A stretch of DNA of 37,248 nt, taken from positions 1 through 37,248 of IMG/VR virus record IMGVR_UViG_3300025141_000306; one strand, given 5' to 3'. Both the position numbers and the translations under genes were made by a program. Below are positions 12,456 through 34,500 of this stretch, piece after piece (within the stretch, counting starts at the first letter, position 1; every line of letters starts with the position of its first letter). Origin of the DNA: a virus. Under the pieces are notes generated by a model, which searched no databases, was not told the DNA's origin, and saw only the letters and a list, made by a program, of their open reading frames with translations.

Positions 12456-12459
12456 GATC

Positions 12460-13478: not shown

Positions 13479-13486
13479 GTAAAGCA

Positions 13487-14011: not shown

Positions 14012-14050
14012 TTCGTTAGACCCAAAAACTAATCTCAATCAGGAGTTAAT

Positions 14051-16068: not shown

Positions 16069-19000
16069 TCATTTGAATGGAACATAGGACCTCTCCCAAG
16101 ACTTGAGTAAGCCTATAGACTCCAAATACTTTGTAAGTTGTTTCTCCATCCGCTTCTCTGAATAGGCTCGCATAAGCTCTGGATCAGTCTGTTTAATCCT
16201 GATGCCAGAGCCAGCGTCAAGGACGCTATACATAAAGGGTAGCTCTTTCAATTCATCTTCGACGACCCCGCCCTCACCGGTAAGCTCCTCGCGTGGTATG
16301 GTTCTACTAATAAGGAATTGGTCAGTCATAGCTGCGGCATCACGGAGGCTACGGCTCCAAGGCATTGAACCTAAGACATGGTTTGGAGCACCATCAACCT
16401 TAACAAAGCTCTTCCAAGACCCACTGTACTTGTCGTATACTGTGTACCCCTTAAGCCCGGTTCTATGTGCCATAATATCGGCCATCGTATCACCAACGAA
16501 TGGAACCTGCCGTATAGCCCCAACAGCTTCAGCAACAAGGCGACCATCTGTTAGTTCGTTAATTGGCTTATCAAAGAACATGTGTTGTCGGGTTCCCACC
16601 TCAACAGCAAAGCGAAGCAGGGCGTGTGTCTCGCCCATAAACCTAATCCACCTACTCCTTGAACTAAAGGCGCGTGCTTGTTGCTCTCTGCCCAACTCTC
16701 CCGGCAGTGGCAATACTGGCCAGTTACGAAGGTCTGCTGCGCCCATTAGCAGCGACATGCTGTTAACCAAGGCTTCTTGCGGTAGACCCAAGCCCTGAAC
16801 CTGTGCGTTCTTAAGACGGGGGAAGTAGTCTTTGCCAAGCTTACCCCATTGTAAATCGTAGTTCTGCCAAGGGATGATACCCTTCTTGCCCTTGATTCTC
16901 TTGATCGCTGGAACAGGTATATCGCCAGCCCATGTGTTCTCCAACGAAAGGAGGGGTAGCTGTATGGTGTGCAGGTAATGAGTCTCCCGCTCTCTTAGCT
17001 TTTCTTTAGAGAGTGGGTCATAGTCTACGAAGCGTTCACCCGCTGACTCTGACTGACTAGCCGAGAGCGCCTGTGGTAAGCCATCAATCATTAGTCGGTG
17101 GAAGTTGGCGTACATCTGTGGTGATGTTCGCATCAAGTCAAACTGTAAGGCAACATTCTTTTGGTTCCAAGTAAAGAACGGAACAAGAAGCCTCATGTAC
17201 CTCTTCTGAACTTGGGTAAGATCACCATAGTTGAATAGGAACTTGTTGACATGTGCGGTAGCATCAGAGAAGCTGTTCGTCTTCTTGAAGTTTGATAAGA
17301 AGTTAAAAACACGGGCTTGGTTTTCAACAGTCCTAGCAACAAACTCACTACCAATTTTCTTTGGTAGGGCGATGGGAACGCCGCCGGTCATAATCGTAGG
17401 AACCGTAACGAGCAGAGCGTCCTCCACAGCACTGGCAACCTTGCCCACCTTAGAAGCGCGGAGGGCATCACCCCTAGCACCGCCGAGAAGAGCCTTCTCA
17501 AGCAGTTGCTGCTCTGCCATCGCTATATCAACCACCTGAGTAAAGGCGGGGCTAACAACACCCCTGTTCGTGAGTTCTGTCACAAGGTCATCTGCGCTCA
17601 TCCAGAAGTCATCTGTAAGCTGGAAACCGTCATCTAAGATTGACTTCATGCCGCTTTTCTTAAATATAGTTCTTGCAGTGAAGTGCTTCGTCTTCTCCCA
17701 CTCGCTTGCTGTGGCAGGTAAAGCCCTGTTCAATGATGCCCAAGCTTTCTCAAGGCTTCCGTACTCCTCGACCCAACGAGTGGCGTTGGCGAGACGAAGA
17801 CCTTGACGGTGTGTTTTAAGATTTAGAACACCCATTGGCCCAAGGTCAAACGCCATAGAGACATTGTTGGCAAGCCAGTTTCTTGTAGAGAAGGCGACAG
17901 CAATAACAGTTACACGAGTCTTCCAGAAGTTGTTGATCTTCTCAAGTGACCTTCTGGCAAACCCAGCGATCTTGGGGTCCATCTCAATAACTTCAGTCAT
18001 GTTTTGCTTAACAACCGCAGGGATGTATTGCTCCCAAAGCTTGGTGTCTGCATCAAGGTAAGAGGACAGAAACTTACCTCTTACTTTTGGAACATTAGGT
18101 GCGTGCTTACGAGTCAGGACATTTATCTCTTCGGCAATCTCGTCCCAGACCTTGGGGGCAAAGCCCCTATCAAACCTAAACTCTGCCAGCTTTCTTGCCT
18201 CTTCAATCTTCTCTGGTGTCGCTTGCGCCTTCCTCATCTTCTCGCCTATATCGGCATCCCAACTCTTTCGGAAAGCGTCCAGACCATTGTTATACCTAGT
18301 GTTAAAGACAGCAACGGCATCGTAAAGGTCTTGGCCCTTTCCGGCTTGTGCTGCACGCAGCCTAAGCAACGCTTGCTCTGTTTGCAGCGTACCCTTTACT
18401 TCGATGGTGTTTCGCATCCACGATGCAAAGCCCTTCTCAACTGGTTCCTTTAGCTCGTCCGCCAATCGCTCTATAGCTTTTTGAACGCCAACCCCCTCCT
18501 CGCCAGCTACGGTTGGGAACCTAGCGAGTAGGTCTTCAAGCTTTCCATTGATGAACAGTTCCATCTCTTCGGTTGAGTAATGGCGACTAAAGACAGGAAC
18601 ATAGTCCAGTTCCTGTGCAAGCTCCTGTGCTGTCTTAAGCACTCCGGGTGTCCGCTCCACAGCAACGCCAAGGTTAGTGTCGCCAGCCCTAATGCCCTTC
18701 ATTACTCCGGTTGCTATGAGTGTCGTGAGGAAGTCTTGTGTCGTTAGCGCATGGTTTGCCTGTGTGTAGCGTGCCCACAGTAAAGTAGGATCTAGTGCGA
18801 TAATATCCGTACTCCCTTTCTTGGCGTTAGTAATCGCATTTATCTCTAGTATACTACCGGCAAGACCACGCTTCTTACTCGCATCCATCTCTCTCATTAA
18901 CAGTTGTTCTAAGCCTTTGGTGCTGCCTCCTCCCCTTGAAATCTTATCGTAGACGGCCATCTCAACACCAACTTCGGAAGCTTCTTTATACAAGTGAGGC

Positions 19001-22000
19001 GCATACTCAACAACACCCCAACGCTGCATCATCTCTGTCTTGTTCCGCATAAAGGAAAGGCTGCGCTTAGAATACTCATGTTCGTATGTTTTAATAAGCC
19101 CGTTTAGCTCTTCCATTACTGGCTTTAGGTCTGACGCAACATCTCCATATCTACGACCGATAACAGATGGATACTTTTTAGTTATCTGCTTTGTCATTTC
19201 CTTTGATATGCCTCGTGGCATCTCTCTTAGGACCGAGAAGGCCGCGAATAGCTGGTCTTCAACGGACAGGTTCTTCTCTGCGACAAGGAGTGCAAAGTCA
19301 TCCCAGAGCTTGGCTTCCCACACCTCAAAGTCTCTGCCGTCAAACTTTATCTCGTTGTCGATGATATAGGGTGGGAACTTAGGTCGTGCTACCCTAGCAA
19401 GCTTGGCCTTCAAATCGTCTAAATCTTTTATAAGCGGCTCTGCAAGATTACCATGCTCGTCTGTTATCTTTTTCTTTGCAAGAGCAGCCGCCCTGCGGGT
19501 TTCCACAACAAACTTACCGGGCTTGCCTTTCGTTTTGAGCATACTAAGCATGTCGTCCTTTATCTTCTGGACATCAGCAGTAATGGTTTCTGCCCTCATC
19601 TTGGATACGCTTCGTTTGACGGTAGCTCTTTTTGCCACCTCAGATAACAGAGCCTTAAGCTCAGGGTCCATTATGCGCTGACGAGAGAGAAGGGTTGTCA
19701 TTGCATCCATAAAGTCATCATAGGTCAAGCCTTTGAGGGCATCACCAAGGTTCCGCCCCTTCAAGCTATCCGCCGTTAATCCAGTCGGACCCATAGGCGT
19801 TCTTCGTATCGGAGGTGCCTCGTCTGGTAGGGCTGCCTTTATTCTCTTCCCATACTTTTTATTGATGGTCTTTAGAGAGTCCAGTATGACATCATTACCG
19901 CCGTGTAGAAGCCCGTTAAGTATGCGAATAAAGCTGTTATGAAACTCGTCTAAGGCTCCAGACCTCTTCCTAATAGAATTAAGACCAGACATGATATTAT
20001 CTGCGGCTTTAGAAAGTGCTCCGCTTGGCTTGAACTCCCGCCCAAGTCCACCCTCCTTGCTCCACTCTCCTAAGTCACGAAGAAGGAACTCAAGGTTCTC
20101 CATCTCGTCTAGCGTAGAAAATCCAGATAGTCTTTGTGACTCTAACTTCTCAAGAACCTTAACCACATCATTTATAAGACCGTCGATGTCAGGGCTAAGA
20201 GCAACCCTTTTGGGGTCTAGGTCTTTCTTTATATTTTCAATAGCTTTTCTAAGTTCTTTCTGGTATTTCTCGCTTAGTCCAAGCTTTCCTTCCTCTCCTA
20301 GAAGCGCCCTAGAAACCTTACCTGTCTGAGCCTTAAGGTTCTTGGCTGCACCTTCGCTGAGAGGTTTGGCCGCCCCTTTGCCTCGCTTAGTAGCGGCTGG
20401 GATAAACGGCTCAAATGGAACCTCAGACTTAAGGATGTCGATGTCTTTCCATTTTTTAATTGGTGGTCCTCCTACCACGGGGTAAGATGGCTTTGGTTTC
20501 CTGATAGGCAGACCAGAAAATGGTTTGGGGCCACCTTTAACAGTACCGAAACGCTCCAGAAGATCATCTGTTAGGTCTAAGACATTATCTAGCGCAGTGT
20601 ATTGACCCTTTTTTAGCCCAAGAAGATCAGCAACGGCCTCAACAAACTTCGTCCACGCAGACTCTTGATCAATCTTAATTGTCTTCAAGAAGCTTTGAGT
20701 ATCCTTGTGCGCGAACGCATAAGAAATAAGCTCGTCCACACCCTTTTTATCCTTAAGCTGGATGTTGAACTGCACCAGACCAAGCTCTCTCAACTCTTGA
20801 GGATCAAGGTCACGCAGTTTCCTTCCGATTGTTACTCTTAAGTTTTCGAGCTTGCTATATAGCTTGTCCGATTTTGACTTTTGCGCGGCCCTAAGAGCAC
20901 GAAATGTGGCGGCGTGTGTTAGTTCGTGGGCAAGCACTTCTGTGGTGACACCCTTATTTAGCTTGTTAAGCCAAATAACATCGAGGTGGGCTTCACCTGT
21001 GGTGGGTGTTGTGGTGGCACCGCCATATCCACCCCTTGGCCCCCGTGGGTGCAACATCTCCATACCAAACATTCCGGCCAAATCTTGACTAGCTTCACTC
21101 CCATCAAAAACCCTAACCTTTCCAGATTTATCAATCTTAGGTAAGATTCTTTCTATCAAAGCACTGGTGGCATCGTCAGCGCTTTCGATAAGAAACTCTG
21201 CGGCCTTTCCGAAAGATATTCCTGATCCTATCTTCGACTCAACCACATGACTGGGCACCCTCTTTATCTCAGACTTAAGAATACCCATCGGCTTTTCAGC
21301 ACCGCGCCTAGGCCAGTATCTAGCAAGCTCGTCCGTGGGTGCATCGAGAACAGCTTCCGTTAGGCGAAGAACCTCTGCAAGAACATTCTGATCTCCCTTG
21401 CCTAGACCAAGGAAACCGGCAACAATCTCTACGAACTTAGTCCAAGCCGACTGTCGCTCAAAATGAATCTTCTTCAGACCATCACGAACGCCTTTGTTTG
21501 TTAAACCCCACGATATAAGCTCGTCTGCATTAAACTTTGTTGGTAGCAGATCCTTGGTGTGCTTGCTCTGTTGGACTATTTTTACAAGATTATTTAACTC
21601 AGAAACATAACCAGCCAAGTGGCTTGAAGCGCTCGGAAAGTCTGTTGCAAAGTGAATCCGCATTGAAGTTGCGTTATGCAGAAGCTCGTGTACTAGCGTT
21701 TCTGGATTGACGCCGTGGTATTTGCCGTAACGGATAGAGTTAGAAACACTTCTTATGTGAATCTCTGTAATCGTACCAGTTGCCTGACCGTCAGACAGAG
21801 CAGCCTGAATCGTGCCCTTTGGGGTTGTAGTAATCGGTATGGGGGCGCTAACGCCGTATGACCCACCACCAGACATTGTTATTCTTCTGTTGGGGTGCAG
21901 AGATAATTTTGGAGTCTTATCCAGATGATTGAGAAAGACAAAGCTCTCATCACTGAGATGAGGTATTATTTTATTTAGGATATGAACAAGCGCCTTATCA

Positions 22001-25000
22001 TCAAGCTCTTTAGCTAAGAACTGTGCAAGTCTTTTCGCAGTGCCAGCTTCTATTATTTTCTCTTCTAGCTCGTGGACAGTGTAGTTCCCTACGCCACTCT
22101 TCCTCTTGCCAAGCTTGTCTTCCCGTGAACCCTTTGGTTTGCTGTGCTTTTTCCGCCTCCTCAAAGCGTCTGTAATGTGTTTACCCAGACGGACATCAAG
22201 GTCTTCGTCTATGCTCACCAAGCCCTCTAGTTTCGCCCATTCCTTTTCAGCTAAGGTTGCAGCCTCAAGGTCTAGCTTTGCAGCGGCCCTCATAGCGTCA
22301 TCGGTCGCCGCAGCTATCGCGGCTTCTGCTGCTGCCTTGGCCCTCCTAGCGGCCCTGAGTTTGATAGATACAATCCGTAGTTTCTCCGCACCTTCTGGCA
22401 TATCAGAGACAGACTTCGGTACGCCTAAACCAATATCAAGCTCTAGCTGTACCTTAGCCCCCTGCCTCCAAGATGACGGTGAGACAAAGCCCTCTGGGAT
22501 AACTGCCCCAGAAGCCTGTGCTCGATCAGCAAGACGGTAAGCCTCCTCTCTTGCATGTCTGCTCGCATACGGAACAATAGACTCATAAACCTTGCCCCTA
22601 GAAGCAAATCCTTTAGACTTCCATCGTCTTGCTGTCTTCTGGACTTCCCGAAGACCGAGTTCCCTGCGGTAGAACCCAAACGCCTGTTGCCAACTGAGGG
22701 CACCGCCTTCCGGCATCGCGGCTGTTAGGGATCTTAACAGGTCATCGCCTCCCCCGCGACGACCTAGCTCATCAAGACGCTTGGTTACATTCTCTATTGT
22801 TTTCCTAGCGTCTTCAAAGGCAGGAGATTCAGGGCCAATGGCGCGTGCTGCTTCCAGTCGCCTCTGAAGATCAGCCACCTCCTTAGAGGTTGCTGCATCA
22901 TCTACTGTGCCTCTTCCTGCCCATTTCTTAAATAGTTTACGCTCTGCTTCAGGAACAAGCAGCATCCACGATGCTCGCTCTTTCGCCATCATTGAGTCTA
23001 TGAGAAGATTAAAGTTCGCCGCGCTCATTCCGGGCAAGAACTCGTCATCTCCCACCTTGGCGCGAGTAACACCTGACCCATCGAGCCGACCACTATTCCA
23101 AGCGTTACGCAGTGCTGCTGCTTCAGATTTGAGTTTGGCTAAGTGATCTCTAATTGCGATACCAATAGCCTTTCTCAACTCAACTGGATCACGAAACTTA
23201 ACGGCGGGTAGCTTTGAGGTAAGCTCCTCTGCAAGAAGCCTAATGCCCTTGTAACCATCAGAGGTGCCCATAGCGATGGCTGTGTTACGAAGAACACTGT
23301 TGGCGGCGGCTTCTGTTCCGAAAATAGTTAGGAGGTCTGCATACAAAGCCTCCGCGTTAGCCGTTTTTTTACCAGACATGAGAAGATCAACAAGCTTATC
23401 TACAGATAAATTATCAACCATACTCTCCAAAGTGCGAATCTTCACAATTCTCTTCTGGAAAATCTTCTTTGTCTTGGCTAATAGCTTGTCCCTTTTTAGG
23501 TTCAGACCAGATAGTGTTTGGTCGATAACTTTCATGTCGGCAAGAATCTTGCCCCTCTCTACCAAGTTGCCTTTTGTAAGGCGAACCATCTGAACAAGAG
23601 CCTGTTCAACAGTTATCTTGCCAAGCTTCATGTCGGGGTCATCTACAATCTTCTGTATGATAGCCTTGATGCCTTCTGACACTTCCTTGACATCATCAGA
23701 CAGGCTCGCGTATTTCCCGGCTCCAGTTTCAATCGCATTGCCAGCTTCGTTGAGAATATCAGTAATCGTATATTCTCTCTTGTTTGCCCAACGCTTTGCT
23801 TCGTCTATCCTAAAGTCTAGGTCTGCAACCATGTCTGGATTGGTTGTTTTTCCACGCTGCTCGACCAGCCGCCTAACCTCTTCTGCTGAGTTTCGACGAC
23901 GACCCTCAAGAGCCTGTTCAGCAGTCTTCATAAGACGCATTGTCGTCGTTCTTAGCTGAGTCTCAAGACCAGTATAAGCCTCCATCATTTTGGTTAGACC
24001 TTCTTGATACTGATCCCACACGAGAGGGTGTGCTTTCTTGAGTCTCCGTATAGTTGTTGTTTGGAACGAAAAGCTTGGAAGCTTATTATAGTTTTCAAGC
24101 AGGTTTATCTGCAATGATTGCGTCATCGGTTGAATGAATCTAGTCCCAAGCGCCCGCCTGAGCATGTCCCACGCAGCAAATGGTAAGACAAGACCCTTCA
24201 TTCCCAAGCTTTGCATTGTCCAAGCAAAGCTCTTTGTGTGGCTCCCGCCAAAAGCGTCTAGGGCAGAAATGCCATCACCGTGTACCTTTATTGCAGCCTC
24301 AAGCTCATTGCTAAGGGCTGAGTATGTGTAAGAGGCAACATTGTCCATCGCAGTATCAATGGGACCAATCGTTCTAAGAAGCTCTCCTGCCTTTCCTAGA
24401 GGGTTTATGTTTACATTCCCACCCACAGTTGTAAAGGGTATATGCCAAGACAGTCCGCCCTGCTTTTTGGCACCCCTAGCGATCTGTCTTGGTCCAGCAT
24501 CACGAGCACCGCGAGCATACTCAATAGTATGCTTAAGTTGTTCAGCAATCTTCTCCGAGTTCCTAGCTTCAAGCGGAATAATTCTCTGCTGCTTTTTTAG
24601 CCAAGCAGAAGCCAGTTCAGGTGACTCAGCTATAGCAAAAAGCTTCTCTTCTAAAATATCTGCGGCTTTAAGAAACCTATCCGCATTAGCTTTGCTAACA
24701 TCATCCCCAATCGACAGATGCTTAGTAGCAATAACATTAGCTTGATCAATCCTATCCTTAGCTATAGATCGAACAACCTCTCTTAACTTGGTAGCATCTC
24801 CAGTCTTAATCGCATCGTTCACCTTACTGAGTATAAGCCTTGAGTGCTCTGCGTCCGTAAGCGCCATGTCAGAGTATCTACCAATAATTTTTTCTGCTCG
24901 TTGTATTAGGGTAGAACCATCCTCGGTTACATCGGTTCCCCTCATTAGGTCTACCATTAGACGCTGGAAGTCCTTAGCATGAGCACCAACATCACTAGCC

Positions 25001-26118
25001 CTATCCATTAGCTCCATATTACCGGCTGCTTTCATCAGCGTGGAACCCAATCTGTAGACATCGTCGCCATGAGTCACAACATTTGTTGCTTTAGCTGGCC
25101 CAGCAAACCATAGCGGATCGGCAATAATCTCCAAGCTTATACCAAGCACAAGGCGACCCATATCGTTACTCATCAAACTACCAAACTTTCTATGAGCGGC
25201 GGTTTCACCAAAGTGAGAGAGGTGTTCAGCGGCATCGTATGGCAGCAGAGAGTCTAGGAGCATGTCTCCGGTAGGGGCGGGAGCCATTGACCAATCCCAC
25301 CACAACCAAGGACGCATGTGCTCTTCTGCTCTCTCAGCAAGCTCACCTGTAGAGACATCAGCGTACAGGTTCTCAATCATTTGTGAGAAGGTAAGAGCAA
25401 ACTCTTCTGTGGTGGCTCGCCCACTGGAAGGACCGGAGGATACAGCCTCGTCGTCCCTGTCCTCGCCAAACACTGCATCCCAAAGTATTTTGGGAGATGA
25501 AATCACTCCGACACTGGTGGCGAGCAGAGCACCACCGACAGCGCCCACGACATCCTGAGTCATGTCGCCAGCGGCTGTTCCGGGGTCTGGTAGCCACTCA
25601 CCGGCCTTTAGGGCAACATACCAAGCAAGCCTCTGAGGTGTGGTAAATGGCTCAAAGAAAGTACCCACATTCTCCCAAAAGGATGGGTCTTCTGCCTCTT
25701 GAATATCTGCTTCTGTTAGGATGTTGCGCCTACCTAAAGCGTTTACAGATGCTACATTCCTCCACTGATCAGCAGCATCTGGGTACTTCCGGGCAAGAAC
25801 AAGCGCATTTTGCGCTCTTAGGCGCTGCTCTGGAGTAGAGATCATCTGACCGCCCAGTCCTCTGAACTGGGATGGGTGTATGTATGGCTTACCGGACTCT
25901 CTTATGCGACTGACCTCTTTCCCAAGAGAAAGAGGTCTGGTGCTAGTCATCTCGGCCAGAATCTTGGGGCTTATATCAATCGACTTGCTGCTTATAAGGC
26001 TTTGTAACGGAGGCGGCCTTGTGGGTGCTCCAAAATCAGGCTCATCCATCCATTGCTGTTGGTTGATCCCTCCATCAGACGCTATCGCTGCCTGTTTATT
26101 TCCGTCTTTTTCAGACAC
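16069..26118 (-). CDS. Giant virion-associated (ejection-type) polyprotein-like protein with two HExxH domains
   Basis: A single frame of about 3,349 codons, over a quarter of the window. GTG 26118 is preferred because GGGGGA lies 7 bases ahead; a TTG at 26133 without SD is the alternative. Residues ~185-207 are hydrophobic and the next ~1,200 mostly helical. Two related metallopeptidase-like domains follow: HELLH at 1477-1481 with Glu1533 in DELIS, and HELTH at 1731-1735 with Glu1796 in DELIS. Each copy ends in an SAWTKFVE…LGL…KG segment, so they arose by duplication. Around residues 2950-2990 lies HVNKFLFNYGDLTQVQKRYM, then LLVPFFTWNQKN, a pattern I associate with the C-termini of large polyvalent phage proteins (LPD38-like, from memory). 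By position it is probably packaged in the head and injected with the DNA. Cleavage of virion or host proteins is inferred, not shown. Confidence 0.8.
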   Translation of the reverse strand: MSEKDGNKQAAIASDGGINQQQWMDEPDFGAPTRPPPLQSLISSKSIDISPKILAEMTSTRPLSLGKEVSRIRESGKPYIHPSQFRGLGGQMISTPEQRLRAQNALVLARKYPDAADQWRNVASVNALGRRNILTEADIQEAEDPSFWENVGTFFEPFTTPQRLAWYVALKAGEWLPDPGTAAGDMTQDVVGAVGGALLATSVGVISSPKILWDAVFGEDRDDEAVSSGPSSGRATTEEFALTFSQMIENLYADVSTGELAERAEEHMRPWLWWDWSMAPAPTGDMLLDSLLPYDAAEHLSHFGETAAHRKFGSLMSNDMGRLVLGISLEIIADPLWFAGPAKATNVVTHGDDVYRLGSTLMKAAGNMELMDRASDVGAHAKDFQRLMVDLMRGTDVTEDGSTLIQRAEKIIGRYSDMALTDAEHSRLILSKVNDAIKTGDATKLREVVRSIAKDRIDQANVIATKHLSIGDDVSKANADRFLKAADILEEKLFAIAESPELASAWLKKQQRIIPLEARNSEKIAEQLKHTIEYARGARDAGPRQIARGAKKQGGLSWHIPFTTVGGNVNINPLGKAGELLRTIGPIDTAMDNVASYTYSALSNELEAAIKVHGDGISALDAFGGSHTKSFAWTMQSLGMKGLVLPFAAWDMLRRALGTRFIQPMTQSLQINLLENYNKLPSFSFQTTTIRRLKKAHPLVWDQYQEGLTKMMEAYTGLETQLRTTTMRLMKTAEQALEGRRRNSAEEVRRLVEQRGKTTNPDMVADLDFRIDEAKRWANKREYTITDILNEAGNAIETGAGKYASLSDDVKEVSEGIKAIIQKIVDDPDMKLGKITVEQALVQMVRLTKGNLVERGKILADMKVIDQTLSGLNLKRDKLLAKTKKIFQKRIVKIRTLESMVDNLSVDKLVDLLMSGKKTANAEALYADLLTIFGTEAAANSVLRNTAIAMGTSDGYKGIRLLAEELTSKLPAVKFRDPVELRKAIGIAIRDHLAKLKSEAAALRNAWNSGRLDGSGVTRAKVGDDEFLPGMSAANFNLLIDSMMAKERASWMLLVPEAERKLFKKWAGRGTVDDAATSKEVADLQRRLEAARAIGPESPAFEDARKTIENVTKRLDELGRRGGGDDLLRSLTAAMPEGGALSWQQAFGFYRRELGLREVQKTARRWKSKGFASRGKVYESIVPYASRHAREEAYRLADRAQASGAVIPEGFVSPSSWRQGAKVQLELDIGLGVPKSVSDMPEGAEKLRIVSIKLRAARRAKAAAEAAIAAATDDAMRAAAKLDLEAATLAEKEWAKLEGLVSIDEDLDVRLGKHITDALRRRKKHSKPKGSREDKLGKRKSGVGNYTVHELEEKIIEAGTAKRLAQFLAKELDDKALVHILNKIIPHLSDESFVFLNHLDKTPKLSLHPNRRITMSGGGSYGVSAPIPITTTPKGTIQAALSDGQATGTITEIHIRSVSNSIRYGKYHGVNPETLVHELLHNATSMRIHFATDFPSASSHLAGYVSELNNLVKIVQQSKHTKDLLPTKFNADELISWGLTNKGVRDGLKKIHFERQSAWTKFVEIVAGFLGLGKGDQNVLAEVLRLTEAVLDAPTDELARYWPRRGAEKPMGILKSEIKRVPSHVVESKIGSGISFGKAAEFLIESADDATSALIERILPKIDKSGKVRVFDGSEASQDLAGMFGMEMLHPRGPRGGYGGATTTPTTGEAHLDVIWLNKLNKGVTTEVLAHELTHAATFRALRAAQKSKSDKLYSKLENLRVTIGRKLRDLDPQELRELGLVQFNIQLKDKKGVDELISYAFAHKDTQSFLKTIKIDQESAWTKFVEAVADLLGLKKGQYTALDNVLDLTDDLLERFGTVKGGPKPFSGLPIRKPKPSYPVVGGPPIKKWKDIDILKSEVPFEPFIPAATKRGKGAAKPLSEGAAKNLKAQTGKVSRALLGEEGKLGLSEKYQKELRKAIENIKKDLDPKRVALSPDIDGLINDVVKVLEKLESQRLSGFSTLDEMENLEFLLRDLGEWSKEGGLGREFKPSGALSKAADNIMSGLNSIRKRSGALDEFHNSFIRILNGLLHGGNDVILDSLKTINKKYGKRIKAALPDEAPPIRRTPMGPTGLTADSLKGRNLGDALKGLTYDDFMDAMTTLLSRQRIMDPELKALLSEVAKRATVKRSVSKMRAETITADVQKIKDDMLSMLKTKGKPGKFVVETRRAAALAKKKITDEHGNLAEPLIKDLDDLKAKLARVARPKFPPYIIDNEIKFDGRDFEVWEAKLWDDFALLVAEKNLSVEDQLFAAFSVLREMPRGISKEMTKQITKKYPSVIGRRYGDVASDLKPVMEELNGLIKTYEHEYSKRSLSFMRNKTEMMQRWGVVEYAPHLYKEASEVGVEMAVYDKISRGGGSTKGLEQLLMREMDASKKRGLAGSILEINAITNAKKGSTDIIALDPTLLWARYTQANHALTTQDFLTTLIATGVMKGIRAGDTNLGVAVERTPGVLKTAQELAQELDYVPVFSRHYSTEEMELFINGKLEDLLARFPTVAGEEGVGVQKAIERLADELKEPVEKGFASWMRNTIEVKGTLQTEQALLRLRAAQAGKGQDLYDAVAVFNTRYNNGLDAFRKSWDADIGEKMRKAQATPEKIEEARKLAEFRFDRGFAPKVWDEIAEEINVLTRKHAPNVPKVRGKFLSSYLDADTKLWEQYIPAVVKQNMTEVIEMDPKIAGFARRSLEKINNFWKTRVTVIAVAFSTRNWLANNVSMAFDLGPMGVLNLKTHRQGLRLANATRWVEEYGSLEKAWASLNRALPATASEWEKTKHFTARTIFKKSGMKSILDDGFQLTDDFWMSADDLVTELTNRGVVSPAFTQVVDIAMAEQQLLEKALLGGARGDALRASKVGKVASAVEDALLVTVPTIMTGGVPIALPKKIGSEFVARTVENQARVFNFLSNFKKTNSFSDATAHVNKFLFNYGDLTQVQKRYMRLLVPFFTWNQKNVALQFDLMRTSPQMYANFHRLMIDGLPQALSASQSESAGERFVDYDPLSKEKLRERETHYLHTIQLPLLSLENTWAGDIPVPAIKRIKGKKGIIPWQNYDLQWGKLGKDYFPRLKNAQVQGLGLPQEALVNSMSLLMGAADLRNWPVLPLPGELGREQQARAFSSRSRWIRFMGETHALLRFAVEVGTRQHMFFDKPINELTDGRLVAEAVGAIRQVPFVGDTMADIMAHRTGLKGYTVYDKYSGSWKSFVKVDGAPNHVLGSMPWSRSLRDAAAMTDQFLISRTIPREELTGEGGVVEDELKELPFMYSVLDAGSGIRIKQTDPELMRAYSEKRMEKQLTKYLESIGLLKSWERSYVPFK

Positions 26119-26140
26119 TCGGCCATCCCCCAACTAGATA

Positions 26141-27112
26141 CTATTGTTCGCTTGCAGCTTCAAGAGCGCCTTCACTAAGTGTTTTCTCTTCTTCCGCGCG
26201 GGCTTCTTCTGCCGCGCGGGCTGCTTCTGCCGCGGCCCTACGGGCCATACGCTCTTCCAACTCTTTCGCCTCGTTTATCTTAGATTGGTGCTTAGCTTTC
26301 ATATGCTGCGCAGAGCCGACTTCTGGTCGGTATCCCATCGACAATGATCCTTCTGTTTGAAAGGGGCTTCCAAATCCACCGGGTTTATTTTTTGGTAGAT
26401 GCTGTGCCATACCGGGAGGGGTAACCACGGGGTACGCTAACTCAGAGGGGTGGGCCACGGGCTTTGGTGGGTTGCTCCCGCGTTCATACGGATATGGCTG
26501 AGTCATATAATCCCAAAGATCAGCCGCCGCGTTCTGCATGTCTGGAGACAGATCCTCATCATTCAGCATCTCACCGAATAACTCTACTCCTTCTTCAAGG
26601 GAATCAGCAGCCTTTAGCCGCGCCCAATACTTTTTGAATCTGGGATCTGTTGTCATGTCCATGACGCCATATTTGTCCAGAGGATGTCCAGCAACTCCGC
26701 CGTGTATTTTGGGATAGCCGACAGAAAAGAATGCTTCTTGAGGACCAGTGATCACAAATTTAGATTGTTCTCCCGTTTGACTATAGAGTCCTTTAAGACT
26801 AATTATTGGTTGCTGCTGACTCGCAAGATTCTCGGAAAATTCTGGAGATACCTTCCCCCACCATGCCATGTGCTCGGCCAATTTTGGCGATAGTGATGGA
26901 TATATATCGGATGATGGATCTGCGGGGTCTTCAACTGGAGAATAGATCCCAGATTCGATACTTGCCTTTAACCCAGCCACCTTATTCTGAGGGACCACCA
27001 CCCAATTCCCACTCTCTTCGTCTAAATACTCAAAGCCATCACCAGCGTCACGAACTTCTACGGTTCGGGCTTTGCCACGGTCATCTGATACTATCTTTTT
27101 ATATTTTGCCAT
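26141..27112 (-). CDS. Internal virion-type protein (323 aa)
   Basis: Unrecognised 323-residue protein between two large internal-virion-type genes. ATG 27112 has GAGG 7 bases ahead. The first ~60 residues are basic and beta-like. The middle is rich in Pro, Gly, Tyr and Trp (AEHMAWWGKVSPEFSE, GYPKIHGGVAG). The last ~60 residues are an Ala/Glu/Arg helix (AKELEERMARRAAAEAARAA and onward), a likely coiled coil or single alpha-helix. The stop lies 7 bases before the alternative TTG start of the giant gene, so the two are probably made together. A head-internal or ejected protein is the likeliest role by position. Confidence 0.55.
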   Translation of the reverse strand: MAKYKKIVSDDRGKARTVEVRDAGDGFEYLDEESGNWVVVPQNKVAGLKASIESGIYSPVEDPADPSSDIYPSLSPKLAEHMAWWGKVSPEFSENLASQQQPIISLKGLYSQTGEQSKFVITGPQEAFFSVGYPKIHGGVAGHPLDKYGVMDMTTDPRFKKYWARLKAADSLEEGVELFGEMLNDEDLSPDMQNAAADLWDYMTQPYPYERGSNPPKPVAHPSELAYPVVTPPGMAQHLPKNKPGGFGSPFQTEGSLSMGYRPEVGSAQHMKAKHQSKINEAKELEERMARRAAAEAARAAEEARAEEEKTLSEGALEAASEQ

Positions 27113-27134: not shown

Positions 27135-29516
27135 TTAAAGAAGGTCTTCGGTAGACTGTACAGATGGTTTTATATCTGCCTCTTCTCCACCAAGAAGTTC
27201 CAATGTTGTTTGTTTCCTTCGCTTTGGCTTCGCTTTTGGCTCCGCCTTCGCCTCAAGAACCTCAGATGGCTTGGTCCTAGCCATGGTAGATTCTGCTTCT
27301 AGTTGGGCTTTCTGCTTGTCCGTTAGTGGCGTCCAATCGCGCTCAAGTGGGTACTCAGTCGCTACTTCGGTTGTCGGTGCAATACCACTCAAATCTCCTT
27401 CTCCAAGCCCCGGATACTCCGCTCCATGCTGTATGATGCCGGTAGGTTTTTCTTCTTCTTTCTCAAAGCCCTTTACCGTCTCAAACGCAGATGGCTCTTC
27501 TTCTACGGTGAATGGGACTAGAACGCCCTGAGCCATTTCTTGATAGATATTGCTAAGAATATCTTCATACTTTCCCCGATGGGCAATCTTGGATCGCTTG
27601 TAATCTTCTGAACCCTCTTCAATTACCACAGGCTCCTTACCCGGCTCTTCTATAATGATCTCACCCTCTCTCAGCCTAACGATTCTACCCTGTGCATCCC
27701 TGAGTGCTGACTCCTTCGGTTTGGCGGCAGCAGCCTCGGCCTCGGCAGCAGCCTCCTCTCCTTCGACTTCTGTTAGAATGTCGGTGGTCTTAGCTGCACC
27801 AATAGCTTCGGCCTTACCAACAGCAAAAGCCGAGTCTTTTAGCACAAGGTCCATAAGTTCATCACCCATCACCTCTGGCATATCTACGCCAGTCTCTTGA
27901 TCGTAGGTTTTTTGTTTGGCGAGCCACGACGCGAGAGCGTTGTCCCACGCACCCTCTGCTATTGCATTTGCGAAAGACAACGACCCATCTTCTGCTCTGA
28001 ACGCTTGGTCACTAAGACCACTCTCAGCCAACCATTCCGCCTGAAACTCCTTGTACCGATCTACCATCGGCGCTTTTACAATCTGGAACTTATCAGTAGC
28101 TTGATAGTTGTTAAGAGTTTCATCAATGCCAGTTATTTGTGTTTTAGTCAGTCCAGCAAGCTTCTCCCTAACAGAAGTCTCTCGGTCGAAGGCGGCAGGT
28201 ACACCACGGCCAACCATGCCCTCGCGGGACATGTACTTCCTAAGCATCACATCTCTCTGAGCCTCTGGAACTCCAGCTACTTTAGCCTGATGAATAAGCG
28301 AAAACAGCTTTGTCATCTTGTAGGGGTTTTTAGTCATCTCAAAAACAGCTTTCCGGTAAGTCTCGTAGTTCGTGCCCTTATACCCCATAGCCGCAAACGC
28401 CTCGCGGAACCCATCAATCTCAATGATGCGAAGAACCTCGTCCGCATAAACATCTTTGTACTTCAGACGGTCTAGCTGATCCTGAACAAGCTGTATCTCG
28501 TCAGTATAGATTGAGGGAGTATCGAATATCTCAGGAGGTCTGTTGCCAGTTTTGTTGGCTTCTATCCTCGCCATAATGATGTCTTCCATAACCGTTATTC
28601 TGTCTTGCTTTGTGTTGTTACCACCCGCTTTCGTTCTCATTATGGCCGTTTGCTTCTCAACCCTCTCTTGTAAGCCGTGAGAGGCTTTACTGCGATCTGC
28701 CATAGCAGCAGCATCTATGTCGCCATAGTTCTCTCTTAGGGTGCCATCAGCAACAAGCCGTGTTGTGACATCTCGCCACATTTCCTCGTACACTGCCTCT
28801 GTTTCTCCGGGGTACTCGCTTCGGAGAAGGTTTTTTGTTAGGCCAGCCATAGCACCAAGAACACCCTGCTCGGCTGTTCTTTCGATGTAAAGCCCACCAG
28901 ACATCTCTTCTACTCCCATCCCGGCTCTAAGCGCACCCTTCAATTTCGGGCTTATCGTGTTCGCTATCTTCTGCGCGACCTGTCCCTTGTCTGATCCAGA
29001 GAACACGCCCTCCTCAAAGCCATCAAACGCCATTTGCGTTGTTTTAATCAGCCCCGGCTGAGTACCAGCATCATCAAAAGATATATCGTAGCCGGGTACA
29101 GACCTCATGCCGCCACTATACAAGATTTCATCGTAGGCATTAAGCTCAAGGGAGCCGTATAGTTGGTACTCATACCCCATCTTCTGAGTTTGAACTCTTG
29201 CCGAACCCTCAAGAAAGCCCACATCCATTTTATGTAGGTCCATCAGTAGCTTAAGAGCATCGTTGCTCTCTACAATCAAGCCCCTTCTCCACTTCTCTTC
29301 CCGTTCCGTTAGGTCCAAAAGTTGGCCCTCAAGCGTGGCCCTCATATTAAGCTCTTCTTTGCCCGTTAGGTTGGTATACGGCCCCTCTCGCCTGTACTTG
29401 ATCGCTTGAGCAATAGCACCGCCTATACCAGCAGGGAATGTACCAGCTTCGCTTGTCTTTCCGGGGTAGCTTTTGCTTAGTAGACTCCCGCCGTATCCTG
29501 CTGTTTGTGTTGCCAT
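27135..29516 (-). CDS. Large internal virion-type protein (793 aa)
   Basis: Unrecognised 793-residue protein. ATG 29516 follows AGGA at about 8 bases. Residues ~1-560 are mostly helical and charged, with no catalytic motif I can name. Residues ~580-600 are an Ala/Glu low-complexity tract (VEGEEAAAEAEAAAAKPKES), and the last ~200 are Glu/Pro/Lys-rich and probably disordered, ending in a basic stretch (KAEPKAKPKRRKQ). Length, helicity and a position between the glycine-zipper protein and the giant protein parallel the internal core or ejection proteins of podoviruses (T7 gp14-16-like order: small, large, very large). That functional parallel is inferred from order and size only. Confidence 0.65.
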   Translation of the reverse strand: MATQTAGYGGSLLSKSYPGKTSEAGTFPAGIGGAIAQAIKYRREGPYTNLTGKEELNMRATLEGQLLDLTEREEKWRRGLIVESNDALKLLMDLHKMDVGFLEGSARVQTQKMGYEYQLYGSLELNAYDEILYSGGMRSVPGYDISFDDAGTQPGLIKTTQMAFDGFEEGVFSGSDKGQVAQKIANTISPKLKGALRAGMGVEEMSGGLYIERTAEQGVLGAMAGLTKNLLRSEYPGETEAVYEEMWRDVTTRLVADGTLRENYGDIDAAAMADRSKASHGLQERVEKQTAIMRTKAGGNNTKQDRITVMEDIIMARIEANKTGNRPPEIFDTPSIYTDEIQLVQDQLDRLKYKDVYADEVLRIIEIDGFREAFAAMGYKGTNYETYRKAVFEMTKNPYKMTKLFSLIHQAKVAGVPEAQRDVMLRKYMSREGMVGRGVPAAFDRETSVREKLAGLTKTQITGIDETLNNYQATDKFQIVKAPMVDRYKEFQAEWLAESGLSDQAFRAEDGSLSFANAIAEGAWDNALASWLAKQKTYDQETGVDMPEVMGDELMDLVLKDSAFAVGKAEAIGAAKTTDILTEVEGEEAAAEAEAAAAKPKESALRDAQGRIVRLREGEIIIEEPGKEPVVIEEGSEDYKRSKIAHRGKYEDILSNIYQEMAQGVLVPFTVEEEPSAFETVKGFEKEEEKPTGIIQHGAEYPGLGEGDLSGIAPTTEVATEYPLERDWTPLTDKQKAQLEAESTMARTKPSEVLEAKAEPKAKPKRRKQTTLELLGGEEADIKPSVQSTEDLL

Positions 29517-29525: not shown

Positions 29526-30110
29526 CTAAGTAATAGGTGGTGGAGTAGCGGAGGCAGTGCCTGTTATTGCTGATGTATCACCCTTTGGCTTACCCATTTG
29601 ACCAAGCTGGCCGAAGTCGTAGCCCAGCAGCGCAGTCAGTGCAGCCTTTTTGTCTTCTCGATCCACCTCTTCCTGACCTGTCTTCATCTGGTGTGCAGCA
29701 ATCTGTCTTTGGATATTCTGTTCGCGCGCACCCCCCGCAGCCCCGGCTCTGGCTGCAAGGGCAGCACGCTCCTGCTCTCCAACCTTAGCGGCCTCCGCGT
29801 CCAACGCAACACCACGAGTTCCGCCCTCTGCCGTAGTTACGGCATTGCGCTTCATTGCAACAGCTTGCTGCTCCCGCAGTCTATCCTCAAACTGAGCCAT
29901 CAGGCTCGCGTCCTGAGCTATCTCTTCCGGTGTAATTCCGGTTCCGAGGTAATCTGCAAAGTCCGCAAGCTCTTGTCCGTACTCACTTTTGGTCAAAGCC
30001 CCGCCAACAAAACCCCCAGCAATCGCCCCTAGAACCATACCCGGAGGGCCAAACTTTGACCCCGATATTCCCCCCTGTATACCTCCGGCAATTACTCCTT
30101 CTGTGCTCAT
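29526..30110 (-). CDS. Glycine-zipper internal virion protein (194 aa)
   Basis: Probable membrane-active ejection protein. AGGAG lies 6 bases before ATG 30110. The N-terminal ~40 residues form a glycine zipper (VIAGGIQGGISGSKFG, then GMVLGAIAGGFVGGALTKSE), a pattern of small hydrophobic residues with Gly every four that packs into membranes or pores. The rest is Ala/Glu/Arg-rich and helical (EDRLREQQAVAMKRNAVTTA and onward), with a probable coiled coil. The size (194) and layout match small podovirus internal virion proteins of the T7 gp14 sort that form a channel for DNA entry. This is known for T7-like phages; here it is inferred from shape and position, not from sequence identity. Confidence 0.65.
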   Translation of the reverse strand: MSTEGVIAGGIQGGISGSKFGPPGMVLGAIAGGFVGGALTKSEYGQELADFADYLGTGITPEEIAQDASLMAQFEDRLREQQAVAMKRNAVTTAEGGTRGVALDAEAAKVGEQERAALAARAGAAGGAREQNIQRQIAAHQMKTGQEEVDREDKKAALTALLGYDFGQLGQMGKPKGDTSAITGTASATPPPIT

Positions 30111-30119: not shown

Positions 30120-30845
30120 CTATCGGATTGCAAGGGCATAGAACGCTCCTATAACCGTTTTTACTTTAGCATGACGCTGGTTAGGATATTTTACATTGGG
30201 GGAAACCCTGATCTCAAACTCGCTATAACCCTTATTAACCCCTGTTTCTACCTGATGCTTATTGACATACTTCCATCTGTTTTCAACATTGTCAGAGACT
30301 GACAAAGAACTACTAGCCTCGGTTGGGGGGTCCGGCGTAGAAGATGCCCACGGTAGGACTGTTCTTGACTCCTCTTTCTCATCCACGGTCGTGCCACTTC
30401 TTCTTGAAATCTTAATCGACCAAAGCTCCGTCTTCTTCCCCCCTTCATCTCCATCTGTATCCCAGACAGTAGCATCTTGCTGGAAGAACGCTTGATAACC
30501 GTAAAGAAGAATAGATGGTGCCCAAGGAAGGAACAACTTAGCAGACAACGATGTATGGGTGTGGTACTGTTGCGCGTTTGAACCAATGTCAAGGGACACC
30601 TGATCGGCATACACAGCGTGCTCTCTGGTAAAGCCTGAGAAGTAACCAAGAGCAAATGACCCGTATTGGCACATTCGTGGCTCTATAGACCTATTACCAG
30701 CACCAAAGTTTTCAAGGTCTAAGCCGCCGTTAAGAATCTCAAGAGTATCGGGAGTAACAGCAGGATCAAACAAGCCGTTTGTGTATATCTCCGGTATCGA
30801 AACCGCGTTACCAGTAGTCAGTGTCATCGTTGGGAGCAGGGGCAT
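30120..30845 (-). CDS. Beta-rich virion protein (241 aa)
   Basis: Unrecognised 241-residue protein. ATG 30845 shares a base with the stop of the upstream gene (TAATG) and has AAGGA 8 bases ahead. Composition (Ser, Thr, Gly, Tyr, few helices) indicates beta structure. There is an acidic loop (DTDGDEGGKKTELW) and a long Ser/Thr/Pro-rich loop near residues 155-185. No signal peptide or catalytic motif is visible. It lies in a run of three such genes between the nozzle-like protein and the internal proteins. A tail-tip, short-fibre or head-fibre component is likely, but there is no clear fibre repeat or host-binding domain to confirm it. Confidence 0.55.
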   Translation of the reverse strand: MPLLPTMTLTTGNAVSIPEIYTNGLFDPAVTPDTLEILNGGLDLENFGAGNRSIEPRMCQYGSFALGYFSGFTREHAVYADQVSLDIGSNAQQYHTHTSLSAKLFLPWAPSILLYGYQAFFQQDATVWDTDGDEGGKKTELWSIKISRRSGTTVDEKEESRTVLPWASSTPDPPTEASSSLSVSDNVENRWKYVNKHQVETGVNKGYSEFEIRVSPNVKYPNQRHAKVKTVIGAFYALAIR

Positions 30846-31576
30846 TATGAGTCCTTATAAAACGCAAAGAAGTTGAGATTTGCATTGTTAATGATAACGC
30901 TTGCTGGCTTTACAGAATCAGCTTGAGGCCCAGTCCCAATGCCAGCCTTCACGTTTAATGTCTCTAGCGTCCAAGTAGCACCAGTTATCCCAGTCTGGTC
31001 AATGACAAACCATATAGATACAGGCGCTTGAATCTCTGAATCTATGATCGCTCCCGCAGACCCAACTAGATTGGTGTACCCTAAAGCCATACCAAGATTC
31101 TCCGCATCCCAGACGGTAACAGTCCCAGAACCAAGGTCGGCTGTGTAGTAGACAGAAAACCACGCTTGGCCATATCCAAGATCGGAGACATTAGCCTTAG
31201 TAAGAGTGCTGACAGTGGCATCAAACATAACCAAGACCTTGCATGGTGGGAGGACATACCCAGCGGTGCTGCTGCCTAGACCATTTAGGGTCATAACTGC
31301 GGCCCAGTCTGAAGTAACATCGCCCACTGTCTCAGCCTCTACTTGGCAGTCAGCCACAGCCAGCGTTAGCGGGCTAGTTAGAGTGCCAGAATCGCTTGCC
31401 GTTGTAGTTGTCCCGTCAAGCGTGCAAAGCGCAGAAGGCAGATGCTGTGTCCCAAAGGCAGAGTCACCAATGCCACCAACCGGAACAGTATTGACAACCG
31501 TCTTAATACTGTCGTACATACTCGTTACACTTACTGTTGAGATAGTCTCACCAGATTTTGGTTTCGTTACAGCCAT
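30845..31576 (-). CDS. Beta-rich virion protein (243 aa)
   Basis: Unrecognised 243-residue protein. ATG 31576 immediately adjoins the upstream gene's stop, with GGGGGG four bases ahead. The sequence is Thr/Ser/Gly/Val-rich throughout (LDGTTTTASDSGTLTSPLTL), typical of a beta-sandwich or fibre domain, and it ends in a short aromatic segment (NNANLNFFAFYKDS). It may be a structural tail or decoration protein. It resembles its right-hand neighbour in composition but not obviously in sequence, so I do not call them a duplicated pair. Confidence 0.55.
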   Translation of the reverse strand: MAVTKPKSGETISTVSVTSMYDSIKTVVNTVPVGGIGDSAFGTQHLPSALCTLDGTTTTASDSGTLTSPLTLAVADCQVEAETVGDVTSDWAAVMTLNGLGSSTAGYVLPPCKVLVMFDATVSTLTKANVSDLGYGQAWFSVYYTADLGSGTVTVWDAENLGMALGYTNLVGSAGAIIDSEIQAPVSIWFVIDQTGITGATWTLETLNVKAGIGTGPQADSVKPASVIINNANLNFFAFYKDS

Positions 31577-32389
31577 CTAGCCCCCCTCAATCCAACCGCC
31601 ACGAGGAAACCGAAAGAGCATTAAGGTTCTATGTGCTATACAAACACCCTGATCAGGAGGAACCTCAAAGCTCGTTGGATACGCCGTGAACCCCCAAGTA
31701 GACAGGGTTAGGGTTGACTCCGTTGGAGACTGCGCTGCCTCGGCCACGATTGAGTGGGTGCCCGGAGGGGCCAAGGTCAGACCAACAATGGTTGTTCTTA
31801 GCGATGTCCCAGCATAGCCGGTTCCCCTGAAGGTAGTGCCGCCGGGGTCAGCATAAATACCGGCTCCGGGTATGGTTCCCCCATCCAGAACAATCCTGAT
31901 CTGAGTTCTTGGCGTAACAGTCGTGCCATCACCAATGTTGAAGTTGCTATCACGCTCTCTTATAAATTGGAAAGAGAAAGCAGTCATGATAAGTTCTGGG
32001 TACTCGTTAGTCCAGCTTATCTCCATATCCTGAGCGCCAGTTATCTTGCCAAATCCCCTGTTGTATGGGATGTGGTATAGTTGGCCATCGCCATTTGAAT
32101 CCAGCAACGGGTCGTTGCCGGGGTCAGCGTCATAATCTGTTCTGGCCACCGAAGGTGAAGCGTTTGTTCCACGGAGAAAGGCTTTCTGACTTACCTGTTC
32201 TATAATAACAGGAGTTCCGTTCTTAAGTAGGTCTATCTGGGGTGTGCTTCCGCTGAATAGTGCATTGTTAACCCACTGATATTGAGATGTATCAGTAGCT
32301 ACAGTAGACGCACGAACAAACTCATCACCAAGCTCATCTGGGTCGATCACACCGCCCGGTTTTAGCCCCTTCGGTAAGAATATGCTCAT
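31577..32389 (-). CDS. Virion protein, possible tail-fibre-like (270 aa)
   Basis: Unrecognised 270-residue protein. AAGGA lies 7 bases before ATG 32389, which overlaps the stop of the nozzle-like gene (ATGA). It starts MSIFLPKGLKPGGVIDPDEL, a short N-terminal region that could attach to the tail, then Gly/Asp/Thr-rich beta segments (DGGTIPGAGIYADPGGTTFR) and closes with an aromatic/basic end (LMLFRFPRGGWIEGG). Position directly after the nozzle-like protein suggests a tail-associated role. No catalytic depolymerase motif or collagen-like repeat is visible. Confidence 0.55.
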   Translation of the reverse strand: MSIFLPKGLKPGGVIDPDELGDEFVRASTVATDTSQYQWVNNALFSGSTPQIDLLKNGTPVIIEQVSQKAFLRGTNASPSVARTDYDADPGNDPLLDSNGDGQLYHIPYNRGFGKITGAQDMEISWTNEYPELIMTAFSFQFIRERDSNFNIGDGTTVTPRTQIRIVLDGGTIPGAGIYADPGGTTFRGTGYAGTSLRTTIVGLTLAPPGTHSIVAEAAQSPTESTLTLSTWGFTAYPTSFEVPPDQGVCIAHRTLMLFRFPRGGWIEGG

Positions 32390-34500
32390 TGTGGTGTCCT
32401 TCCGCCGGGTAACGCCACCATAGGCCCGTAAACATCCAGCGACATTACAGATAATGGGTCTGAAGATTCTATCTTAACCTGAAACACAGACGCGGACGAA
32501 ACACTCAAGGCGATTCTATCAGAGTAGGCTCGATGTTCCCGATACACCCCCGTTCCGTATAGAGCTATTTCGTAGTAAGGAATGTCCGAGTTCTCTGGGT
32601 GTGCGGTAGAAACCGTTCCCGACTCCACAGGGTTATCGCCGTCCCAATCCTGATAGCTAGAGACAGTGGCTGTCCCAGAATAAGTCTCTTTCATCAAAAC
32701 AATGAGGTCATTAACATTTGATAGAGCGTGCATACCCGGACCAACTTCAGCCATAGAGCACCAGCCACTCCTATAGGTTGCTACCGGACTTGATGCTGTG
32801 TAACCAGTGTACGAGTTCCCATAGGCGTACACACCTTTACTGTGTGTTTCTTTATCGCCAGTCCCAGACGGTTCGTATGAGCCACTAACCAGAACAAGGT
32901 CAGAGTTGTCTATTGCAATGGCAGCAGTAACCTTCAAATCTTCTTTTATCCGCCACCCGGAGAACCGTGTGTCCCAAATAAACTGCATGTTCGGGACCAA
33001 AGAGTCGTCAATGGGGAGGACGAAGACCAACTCACCAGCGTTTGGATCAACCCAAGATATACCCATCTTTGCTTTCTTCTTGTTAACGCGAGAAAGTCGT
33101 TTCCTTATAGGCCCACCCACATCAACAATCTGACCCTTTTCCGAAGAAAAAGCCCAGAAAGTATCGTTTCCATACCAGACGATTGTGCTATCTGACCCTG
33201 ACTGAATAAGATTAGGCCCAGCAAGCCCTGACTTCTTGTGTAGCGTGCCAGAGAACCAGTCAGGATACTTACCAGAGATATAGTGAACTGCCTTCTCCTT
33301 GAATACCAAAAGCGTTGGGCTAGATGTATCGCCCATACTAGAGGTCGCTGGGTAACAACCCGTTATGGGGCCGGTAGACGGGGAGATGTCTAGGTAATGG
33401 TTCTTTAGTAAACTTTCTGGCGTAGATCCGTATAGGCTTGTCTGCTCAGACCACCAAACCCTATGTGGATTCCCGTCCGTTCTTAGCAGAAACAAGGAAC
33501 CTGCGAACGGCCTCATAAAGTAAAACCCAGTAGGCACAGGATCTCTTTGCAGCCAAGGAAGACCAAGCGCACTATCAGTTATATTATCAATCCATTCTGT
33601 AGCTGTATTGTTGGGTATACGGTGCAGAAGTCTAGGCTCCGCCAGTGCTATGCTGTTCTGCTCATCGGGTGTCCTAAGAAGGATTCTCGCCACAGTCCCT
33701 TCCGGCCCTATGGGAATATCCTTAATCCAGAACTTCCTTCGCTTGGCTGCCGCTACGAGTCCCGACGTGGCGACATCTGATTCGATGGTGCAAGAGCTTG
33801 CATCCTCCGACGAGGGTGAGTAGGCTCCGTCTACATTTTCAAAAACAACTGTATAAGTCCATCTTCCATTAAGGATGCCATGAGAAGCTGCTGGGGTTCC
33901 TCCGTCCGACACCAACATACTCGATGTGATTGAACCAATGTTACCTGCAACATCAAAGTTGCCACGCGGTCCTATAGCCGCTGGCGACGATGGTGCTGAC
34001 CTGTATCCAAACTGACGAATCTTGTGGCCATCCCATACCCATGTGTTACCGCCATCACCGAAGTTAAAATAGATTCTATTACCCAGCGTAATGACTTGCG
34101 CTGGAAACTTCTGTCTTGCTTGGGGAGCACAGCTAGATGTTGCGCTCGTTACGAAATGATAAAGATACTGTTCATCTAAGCCACGATTACCAGCCGTACC
34201 AGTATTCCTAAACCAAGGTGTATACCGAAACACCCCAGTCGATGTAAGGAATAGGATCTCTGGCCTTTCTCCACCGTCTAAACGGATCTGGGCAAAGCCC
34301 ACAACATCGCTGAAGGCAGTTGGCTGCTGGTCTACATTCCAAATAGTAGGGATTAGCGGCATAAGCCTAAAGTTAGACCGAAGAAAACCCTCTTTATCCA
34401 CATCAAAATTGATTATCTGATAAGCCTTAGTTCCATCAGATAGCGGGACTTCTGCCATAACCTTGGCACCAACGGACTTTGCCTGATAGTCCTTAAACAT
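32386..34500 (-). CDS. Tail nozzle-like structural protein (704 aa)
   Basis: Probable tail tube/nozzle protein that closes the short tail. ATG 34500 follows an AAGAAGGG SD, 2 bases after the adaptor-like gene's stop. The 704-residue protein is beta-rich with repeated turns: GERPEILFLTSTGVFRYTPW, VITLGNRIYFNFGDGGNTWV, FFVLRTDGN-type segments, and GRWTYTVVFENVDGAYSPSS (a fibronectin-like strand set common in nozzle-type proteins). WSEQTSLYGSTPES and DTRFSGWRIKEDL resemble propeller-like repeats seen in tail tubular protein B relatives. Length (700-800) and position right after the adaptor-like gene fit. Identification rests on order and texture; no alignment was possible. Confidence 0.65.
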   Translation of the reverse strand: MFKDYQAKSVGAKVMAEVPLSDGTKAYQIINFDVDKEGFLRSNFRLMPLIPTIWNVDQQPTAFSDVVGFAQIRLDGGERPEILFLTSTGVFRYTPWFRNTGTAGNRGLDEQYLYHFVTSATSSCAPQARQKFPAQVITLGNRIYFNFGDGGNTWVWDGHKIRQFGYRSAPSSPAAIGPRGNFDVAGNIGSITSSMLVSDGGTPAASHGILNGRWTYTVVFENVDGAYSPSSEDASSCTIESDVATSGLVAAAKRRKFWIKDIPIGPEGTVARILLRTPDEQNSIALAEPRLLHRIPNNTATEWIDNITDSALGLPWLQRDPVPTGFYFMRPFAGSLFLLRTDGNPHRVWWSEQTSLYGSTPESLLKNHYLDISPSTGPITGCYPATSSMGDTSSPTLLVFKEKAVHYISGKYPDWFSGTLHKKSGLAGPNLIQSGSDSTIVWYGNDTFWAFSSEKGQIVDVGGPIRKRLSRVNKKKAKMGISWVDPNAGELVFVLPIDDSLVPNMQFIWDTRFSGWRIKEDLKVTAAIAIDNSDLVLVSGSYEPSGTGDKETHSKGVYAYGNSYTGYTASSPVATYRSGWCSMAEVGPGMHALSNVNDLIVLMKETYSGTATVSSYQDWDGDNPVESGTVSTAHPENSDIPYYEIALYGTGVYREHRAYSDRIALSVSSASVFQVKIESSDPLSVMSLDVYGPMVALPGGRTPQ

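Follow-up and report, generated by a model that had tools for sequence, protein, structure and literature searches.

A giant ORF in the late region of the window

We identified an ORF for a putative giant ejection-type protein (P0001) on the minus strand of the 37,248-nucleotide stretch of viral DNA analysed here, which is referred to over its whole length as the window (Table 1). An ORF of about 3,350 amino acids at 16069-26118 had originally been predicted from the sequence. It is present, and position 26118 is a GTG directly downstream of a GGGGG stretch, a plausible start that would give a protein of 3349 amino acids; the TTG at 26133 is also possible and is used for the numbering below. 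The giant ORF is preceded in the late operon by the genes for the 194-, 793- and 323-amino acid proteins, in that order. Judged from gene order, these neighbours are putative ejection proteins. The glycine-zipper match of the 194-amino acid protein is weak (E 0.046, below the cut-off). Four further late genes precede them; those that were also found in loci L133, L134 and L136 are arranged there as in the window, upstream of the giant ORF.

Table 1. Positions in the window of the giant ORF, its parts and the genes upstream of it (residues are those of the giant protein).
Feature	Position	Strand	Residues	Remarks
Giant ejection-type polyvalent protein ORF (P0001)	16069..26133	-		3354 aa from TTG at 26133
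N-terminal conserved block	22915..25833	-	~101-1073	profile and BLASTP
Central variable slot	19336..22914	-	~1074-2266	
Stretch replaced in L146	20341..22452	-	1228-1931	
Metallopeptidase-like unit D1	21286..22122	-	1338-1616	
D1 HELLH	21676..21690	-	1482-1486	predicted zinc ligands H1482, H1486; general base E1483
D1 DELIS	21511..21525	-	1537-1541	E1538, predicted third zinc ligand
Metallopeptidase-like unit D2	20518..21297	-	1613-1872	
D2 HELTH	20914..20928	-	1736-1740	H1736, E1737, H1740
D2 DELIS	20722..20736	-	1800-1804	E1801, predicted third zinc ligand
C-terminal conserved block	16078..19335	-	2267-3352	contains FFTWNQKN
323-aa protein, directly upstream of giant ORF	26141..27112	-		no family match
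793-aa protein	27135..29516	-		candidate second ejection protein, from position, size and gene order
194-aa protein	29526..30110	-		candidate small membrane-active ejection protein; weak glycine-zipper match
Four late genes	30120..34500	-		30120-30845, 30845-31576, 31577-32389, 32386-34500

On the plus strand, a set of replication genes (8353-15700; DnaB-like helicase, Cas4-type exonuclease, SSB, RuvC-like resolvase and primase) runs toward the late genes, and a gene for an amidase-type endolysin is located at 4900-5697. No matches to the tail genes (32386-34500 and 34503-36041) were obtained from the annotated phage collection, and it is therefore by inference that we regard this uncultured phage as probably podovirus-like. 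No close cultured relative exists.

Two tandem copies of a metallopeptidase-like domain

The central part of the giant protein contains two copies of one domain, D1 and D2, arranged head to tail as repeat units of about 260-280 amino acids. The repetition of the domain is real. Pairwise BLASTP of D1 against D2 gave an identity of 30-39% with E values from 5e-19 to 2e-18. The repeat exceeds the length originally recognised, continuing upstream of the HExxH motif, as the D2 region matches residues 1338-1616 at 30% identity (E 3e-18). HELLH and HELTH are separated by exactly 254 residues. In composition-preserving shuffles of the giant protein the mean number of HExxH motifs was 0.06 and the probability of finding two or more was 0.001. 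The original prediction of two copies is confirmed. The DELIS and SAWTKFVE blocks (the latter at residue 1562 in D1 and 1825 in D2) were found in both copies where that prediction had placed them. D1 and D2 differ at second-shell positions, with HNAT in D1 versus HAAT in D2 and R versus Q at the FQ position.

Searches of the whole giant protein against Pfam and PHROGs gave no peptidase match, none of the Pfam metallopeptidase models matches D1 or D2, and an RNA polymerase module was found over the full length of the protein with neither Pfam nor PHROGs. Only the peptidase region, when scanned alone, matches a PHROG (phrog_2206). Close relatives of the tandem region were not found by scanning viral contigs, and a scan with a profile of two rows returned one locus.

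The domain belongs to a family found in ejected phage proteins

Viral contigs were scanned for the pattern HExxHAAT and 119 stretches were fetched. According to a profile search the domain is encoded by nearly all of these; most of the ORFs concerned measure 1200-3900 amino acids, and many are cut by the end of the contig or locus. Across 66 aligned copies only five columns do not vary: H, E, H, T and the DELIS Glu. The fetching pattern itself accounts in part for the first four, but the DELIS-type Glu, present in 66 of 66 copies, was not selected for. The distance from the second His to this Glu ranges from 39 to 100 residues (median about 65). HAAT is found in 63 of the 66 copies, D1 having HNAT, and the PHROG 'virion RNA polymerase' model matches 63 of the 66.

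A TBLASTN search with the tandem region against annotated phages identified 167 records, among them phiKMV gp37, Pradovirus internal virion proteins, Schitoviridae virion RNA polymerases and a DarB-like protein of Serratia phage Parlo; a plasmid collection gave no matches. When PDB sequences were searched with a D2-led profile, the domain was found in a phiKMV-type internal virion protein (9sfn, E 1e-44), in the C1 domain of the N4 virion RNA polymerase (vRNAP) gp50 (residues 2124-2375; PMC12633501; PDB 9pnr and 11gp; E 3e-30), in 23sg gp10 (E 9e-21) and in the PhiM1 ejection protein (8vb2, E 2e-14). A D1-led profile recovered the same set, with N4 vRNAP at E 1e-8. These matches bear out the earlier expectation that the giant protein is to be grouped with phage proteins that are ejected or packaged in the virion.

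A zincin-like metallopeptidase (MPTase) has been defined in the 'polyvalent proteins' of phages and plasmids (Iyer et al. 2017, PMC5512222), which carry one to five copies each, about 8% of them having more than one. Its authors mapped it to residues 2130-2448 of N4 vRNAP and described for it the core and Glu ligand that are predicted here, and our profile relates the domain of the window to this defined member. Judged by these profile matches, the D1/D2 domain is the metallopeptidase of the polyvalent proteins. The domain is common in phage-ejected proteins and structures have been solved, yet we found no Pfam model that covers it.

Predicted fold and metal site

AlphaFold2 models were obtained for D2 (66 rows; pLDDT 79.5, pTM 0.76) and D1 (49 rows; pLDDT 74.5, pTM 0.73). 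Both consist of a helix, three strands, the HExxH helix, a further helix and a helix with the Glu, although the N-terminal part of the D1 model is of low confidence. The elements are H15-29, E35-38, E62-69, E76-83 and HExxH helix 92-113 in D2, and H14-21, E31-37, E56-62, E70-77 and HExxH helix 93-114 in D1. In both models the three-stranded sheet with its N-terminal helix lies ahead of the HExxH helix, HExxH is on the first C-terminal core helix and the Glu of the predicted third ligand is on a later core helix. A Foldseek search with the D2 model gave no matches with E under 0.001. Re-ranking of the fold matches with VIA placed M34-type zincin peptidases at the top for both models (D2: Z 8.6, rmsd 3.9, 165 aligned; D1: Z 7.2, rmsd 4.4, 151 aligned), with N4 vRNAP (9pnt) at Z 7.1 for D2; these Z scores are close to what can be obtained with unrelated models and do not decide the matter alone, as the sequence profile does. 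The fold assignment therefore rests on the consistent list of zincins together with the sequence profile, which support D1 and D2 as zincin-type metallopeptidase-like domains.

In each copy, one zinc is predicted to be bound by the two His residues and the downstream Glu of DELIS. That this Glu is the third ligand had been proposed originally; its invariance in 66 of 66 copies, its position on a predicted helix and the zincin core that structure prediction returned for both copies support the proposal. Neither copy has lost a predicted ligand or the general base, and both are therefore predicted to be active. An alternative is that the domains are structural remnants, serving as packing or channel parts and not as peptidases in practice. 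In PhiM1 the copy forms part of a tetrameric ejectosome protein located within the capsid (8vb2), and no activity of the domain is reported in PMC5512222, PMC12633501 or PMC11440229. We consider this improbable, since the HExxH and Glu set is invariant in 66 diverged copies while almost all else varies, which points to selection on the metal site; in weighing this invariance, HExxH is partly set by the search pattern but the Glu is not.

Conserved end blocks flank a variable slot

Viral relatives of the giant protein over its whole length have both end blocks in common but differ in the middle. The N-terminal block is common to L002, L003, L004, L133, L136, L146, L148, L150 and L153, and BLASTP comparison of six middle regions (window, L002, L003, L004, L133 and L136) detected no mutual similarity. 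The slot is about 1190 amino acids long in the window, 1310 in L002, 475 in L003 and 220 in L004. The closest relative, L146 (3494 amino acids), matches residues 6-1227 of the window protein at 40% and residues 1932-3354 at 50%; in its ORF at 8148 the tandem region is swapped for an unrelated segment of about 930 residues (residues 1150-2079) which has no HExxH and no Pfam match. L148 and L150 have one metallopeptidase each in the slot. The HELWH of L002 had been taken as unrelated, a view that was dropped after comparison with the metallopeptidase profile (79%, E 1.5e-5), which makes it a probable remote copy. In L003 (ORF at 3140), residues 1189-1357 of the slot match a polyvalent-type ADP-ribosyltransferase (PF18760, E 3.7e-7, just above its curated cut-off). 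A LysM match in L133 (ORF at 6302, residues 599-627, E 2.8e-5), possibly a peptidoglycan contact, was rejected as slot content, as profiles place it within the N-terminal block.

Neither end block has a Pfam domain, and comparison with PDB sequences gave nothing convincing. PHROGs gave one weak match in the C-terminal block, and the C-terminal half matched none of the annotated phages. When the C-terminal block was searched against genomes of bacteria and archaea, only four relatives, short and weak, were returned. The end blocks are likely to package and deliver the giant protein. Somewhat short of an even chance, in our estimate, the protein could be a delivery chassis as a whole, with the end blocks as packaging and ejection machine and the slot holding interchangeable payload domains injected into the host. 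If so, comparing slots across this phage group would list phage-delivered effectors, the payloads being one metallopeptidase or a pair of them, an ADP-ribosyltransferase and other segments.

The payload of the slot might act on host proteins, with D1 and D2 having diverged to cut different targets. The payload-like swaps (the ADP-ribosyltransferase in L003 and the unrelated segment in L146) and the second-shell differences between D1 and D2 speak for such host-directed effectors, whereas the occurrence of the same domain in ejection proteins with conserved structural roles speaks against them, and we hold this possible rather than probable.

Origin of the pair

The two copies had originally been ascribed to an internal duplication. 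This is not established: D1 and D2 are not sisters in a tree of 112 rows nor in one of 40 rows, although trees constrained to unite them are not rejected (p-AU 0.315 and 0.188). Two separate acquisitions, which would be compatible with any function, have in our view a nearly even chance of having joined them. In addition to the trees, this is suggested by the BLASTP score of D1 to the single-copy relative L098 (85 bits versus 67 bits to D2), and D1 likewise scores better against L028, L030 and L106 than against D2. On the other hand, no other copy in the full tree has a higher identity to D1 or to D2 than they have to each other (37%), they lie exactly head to tail, and the tests leave their sisterhood standing.

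Two confident copies were found in 3 of 120 domain-bearing ORFs (the window, L042 and the vRNAP of Vibrio phage PG11), so that an adjacent pair is uncommon in this sample. In the PG11 virion RNA polymerase (L008) the HExxH motifs are at residues 2187 and 2424, 237 apart. The ORFs L042 10749 and L165 5886 have HNAT in the first and HAAT in the second copy as in the window, with about 610 residues between the copies, and no other similarity to the window protein was detected. A search for HNAT gave, as the only other confident copies of the family, these first copies of L042 and L165, which represent one lineage; the rest were unrelated or remote. An HNAT first copy shared by double-copy proteins is a lead, not a result.

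Proposed function and comparison with known systems

We consider it likely that the protein is a giant polyvalent ejection protein whose central slot holds two head-to-tail zincin-like metallopeptidase copies, and that it is packaged whole with the peptidases acting after ejection. Its presence in the virion and its ejection are suggested by the homologous domains and the gene order. The protein would travel with the phage DNA into the cell, where the peptidases would act in or on the cell envelope or in the cytoplasm, and their cleavage would either free pieces of the giant protein or cut host proteins. Alternatively, the peptidases could form a self-processing cassette that cuts the giant polypeptide while the virion is assembled or immediately after ejection, allowing the blocks to come apart and to pass through a narrow channel or act separately, the two copies making two cuts. 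Autoprocessing has been proposed for the family by Iyer et al., and phage P1 DdrB, in which the copy is C-terminal, is processed before packaging (PMC5512222); the central position of D1 and D2 between two conserved blocks would fit as well. We nevertheless regard it as rather unlikely. For N4 vRNAP, which shares the domain, packaging without processing has been reported (PMC5512222), and autoprocessing before packaging is therefore not general. Moreover, L003, L004 and L146, which have no recognisable peptidase, still keep both blocks in one ORF, which argues against a scaffold that needs cleavage and slightly favours a payload.

The proposed ejection protein with paired peptidases can be compared with several known systems. 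M34-type zincins (the lethal factor catalytic domain and Pro-Pro endopeptidases), the best fold matches of both models, resemble the copies in fold only, with no detectable sequence relation. The Parlo protein (QBQ72230) is polyvalent and has the same domain and a second HExxH; unlike the window protein it carries SLT transglycosylase, helicase and methyltransferase domains, and its two HExxH motifs are about 1360 residues apart, the second not being recovered by the metallopeptidase profile. The phiKMV-type internal virion proteins (gp37; 9sfn) have the domain with HEAVHAAT and KELVAWGLT, but as one copy in a protein of about 1340 amino acids with a different scaffold.

The tetrameric ejection protein of PhiM1 (8vb2; PMC11440229) also has one copy, with HEAAHAKT and HEFIS, at residues ~377-510. 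This ejectosome protein corresponds to L145 (JX290549.1) 10198-13989, in which residues ~377-510 match the metallopeptidase profile, and its region Asp268-Asp528 was labelled endolysin/exotransglycosidase-like by its authors (PMC11440229). On the profile match this label may be wrong, and placing the region in the metallopeptidase family changes what should be assayed.

N4 vRNAP, in whose C1 domain a 2025 preprint notes the HExxH (PMC12633501), is a giant virion protein that is ejected into the cell, as we propose for the window protein. It has one copy by our profile, together with an RNA polymerase module, whereas the window protein has two copies. The window domain resembles the polyvalent MPTase in its HExxH helix, its second helix with the Glu ligand and its three-stranded sheet with an N-terminal helix, and likewise lies, as the MPTase sometimes does in more than one copy, inside a very large phage protein. 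It differs in that its copies are adjacent and head to tail, and its scaffold is covered by no Pfam model and matched weakly at the C-terminus by PHROGs. The domain and its multi-copy state are thus already known (Iyer et al. 2017); what is new here is the setting, in which conserved end blocks flank a changeable central slot, and this offers a natural comparison within one scaffold, which carries two peptidases, a single one or none, or an ADP-ribosyltransferase in their place.
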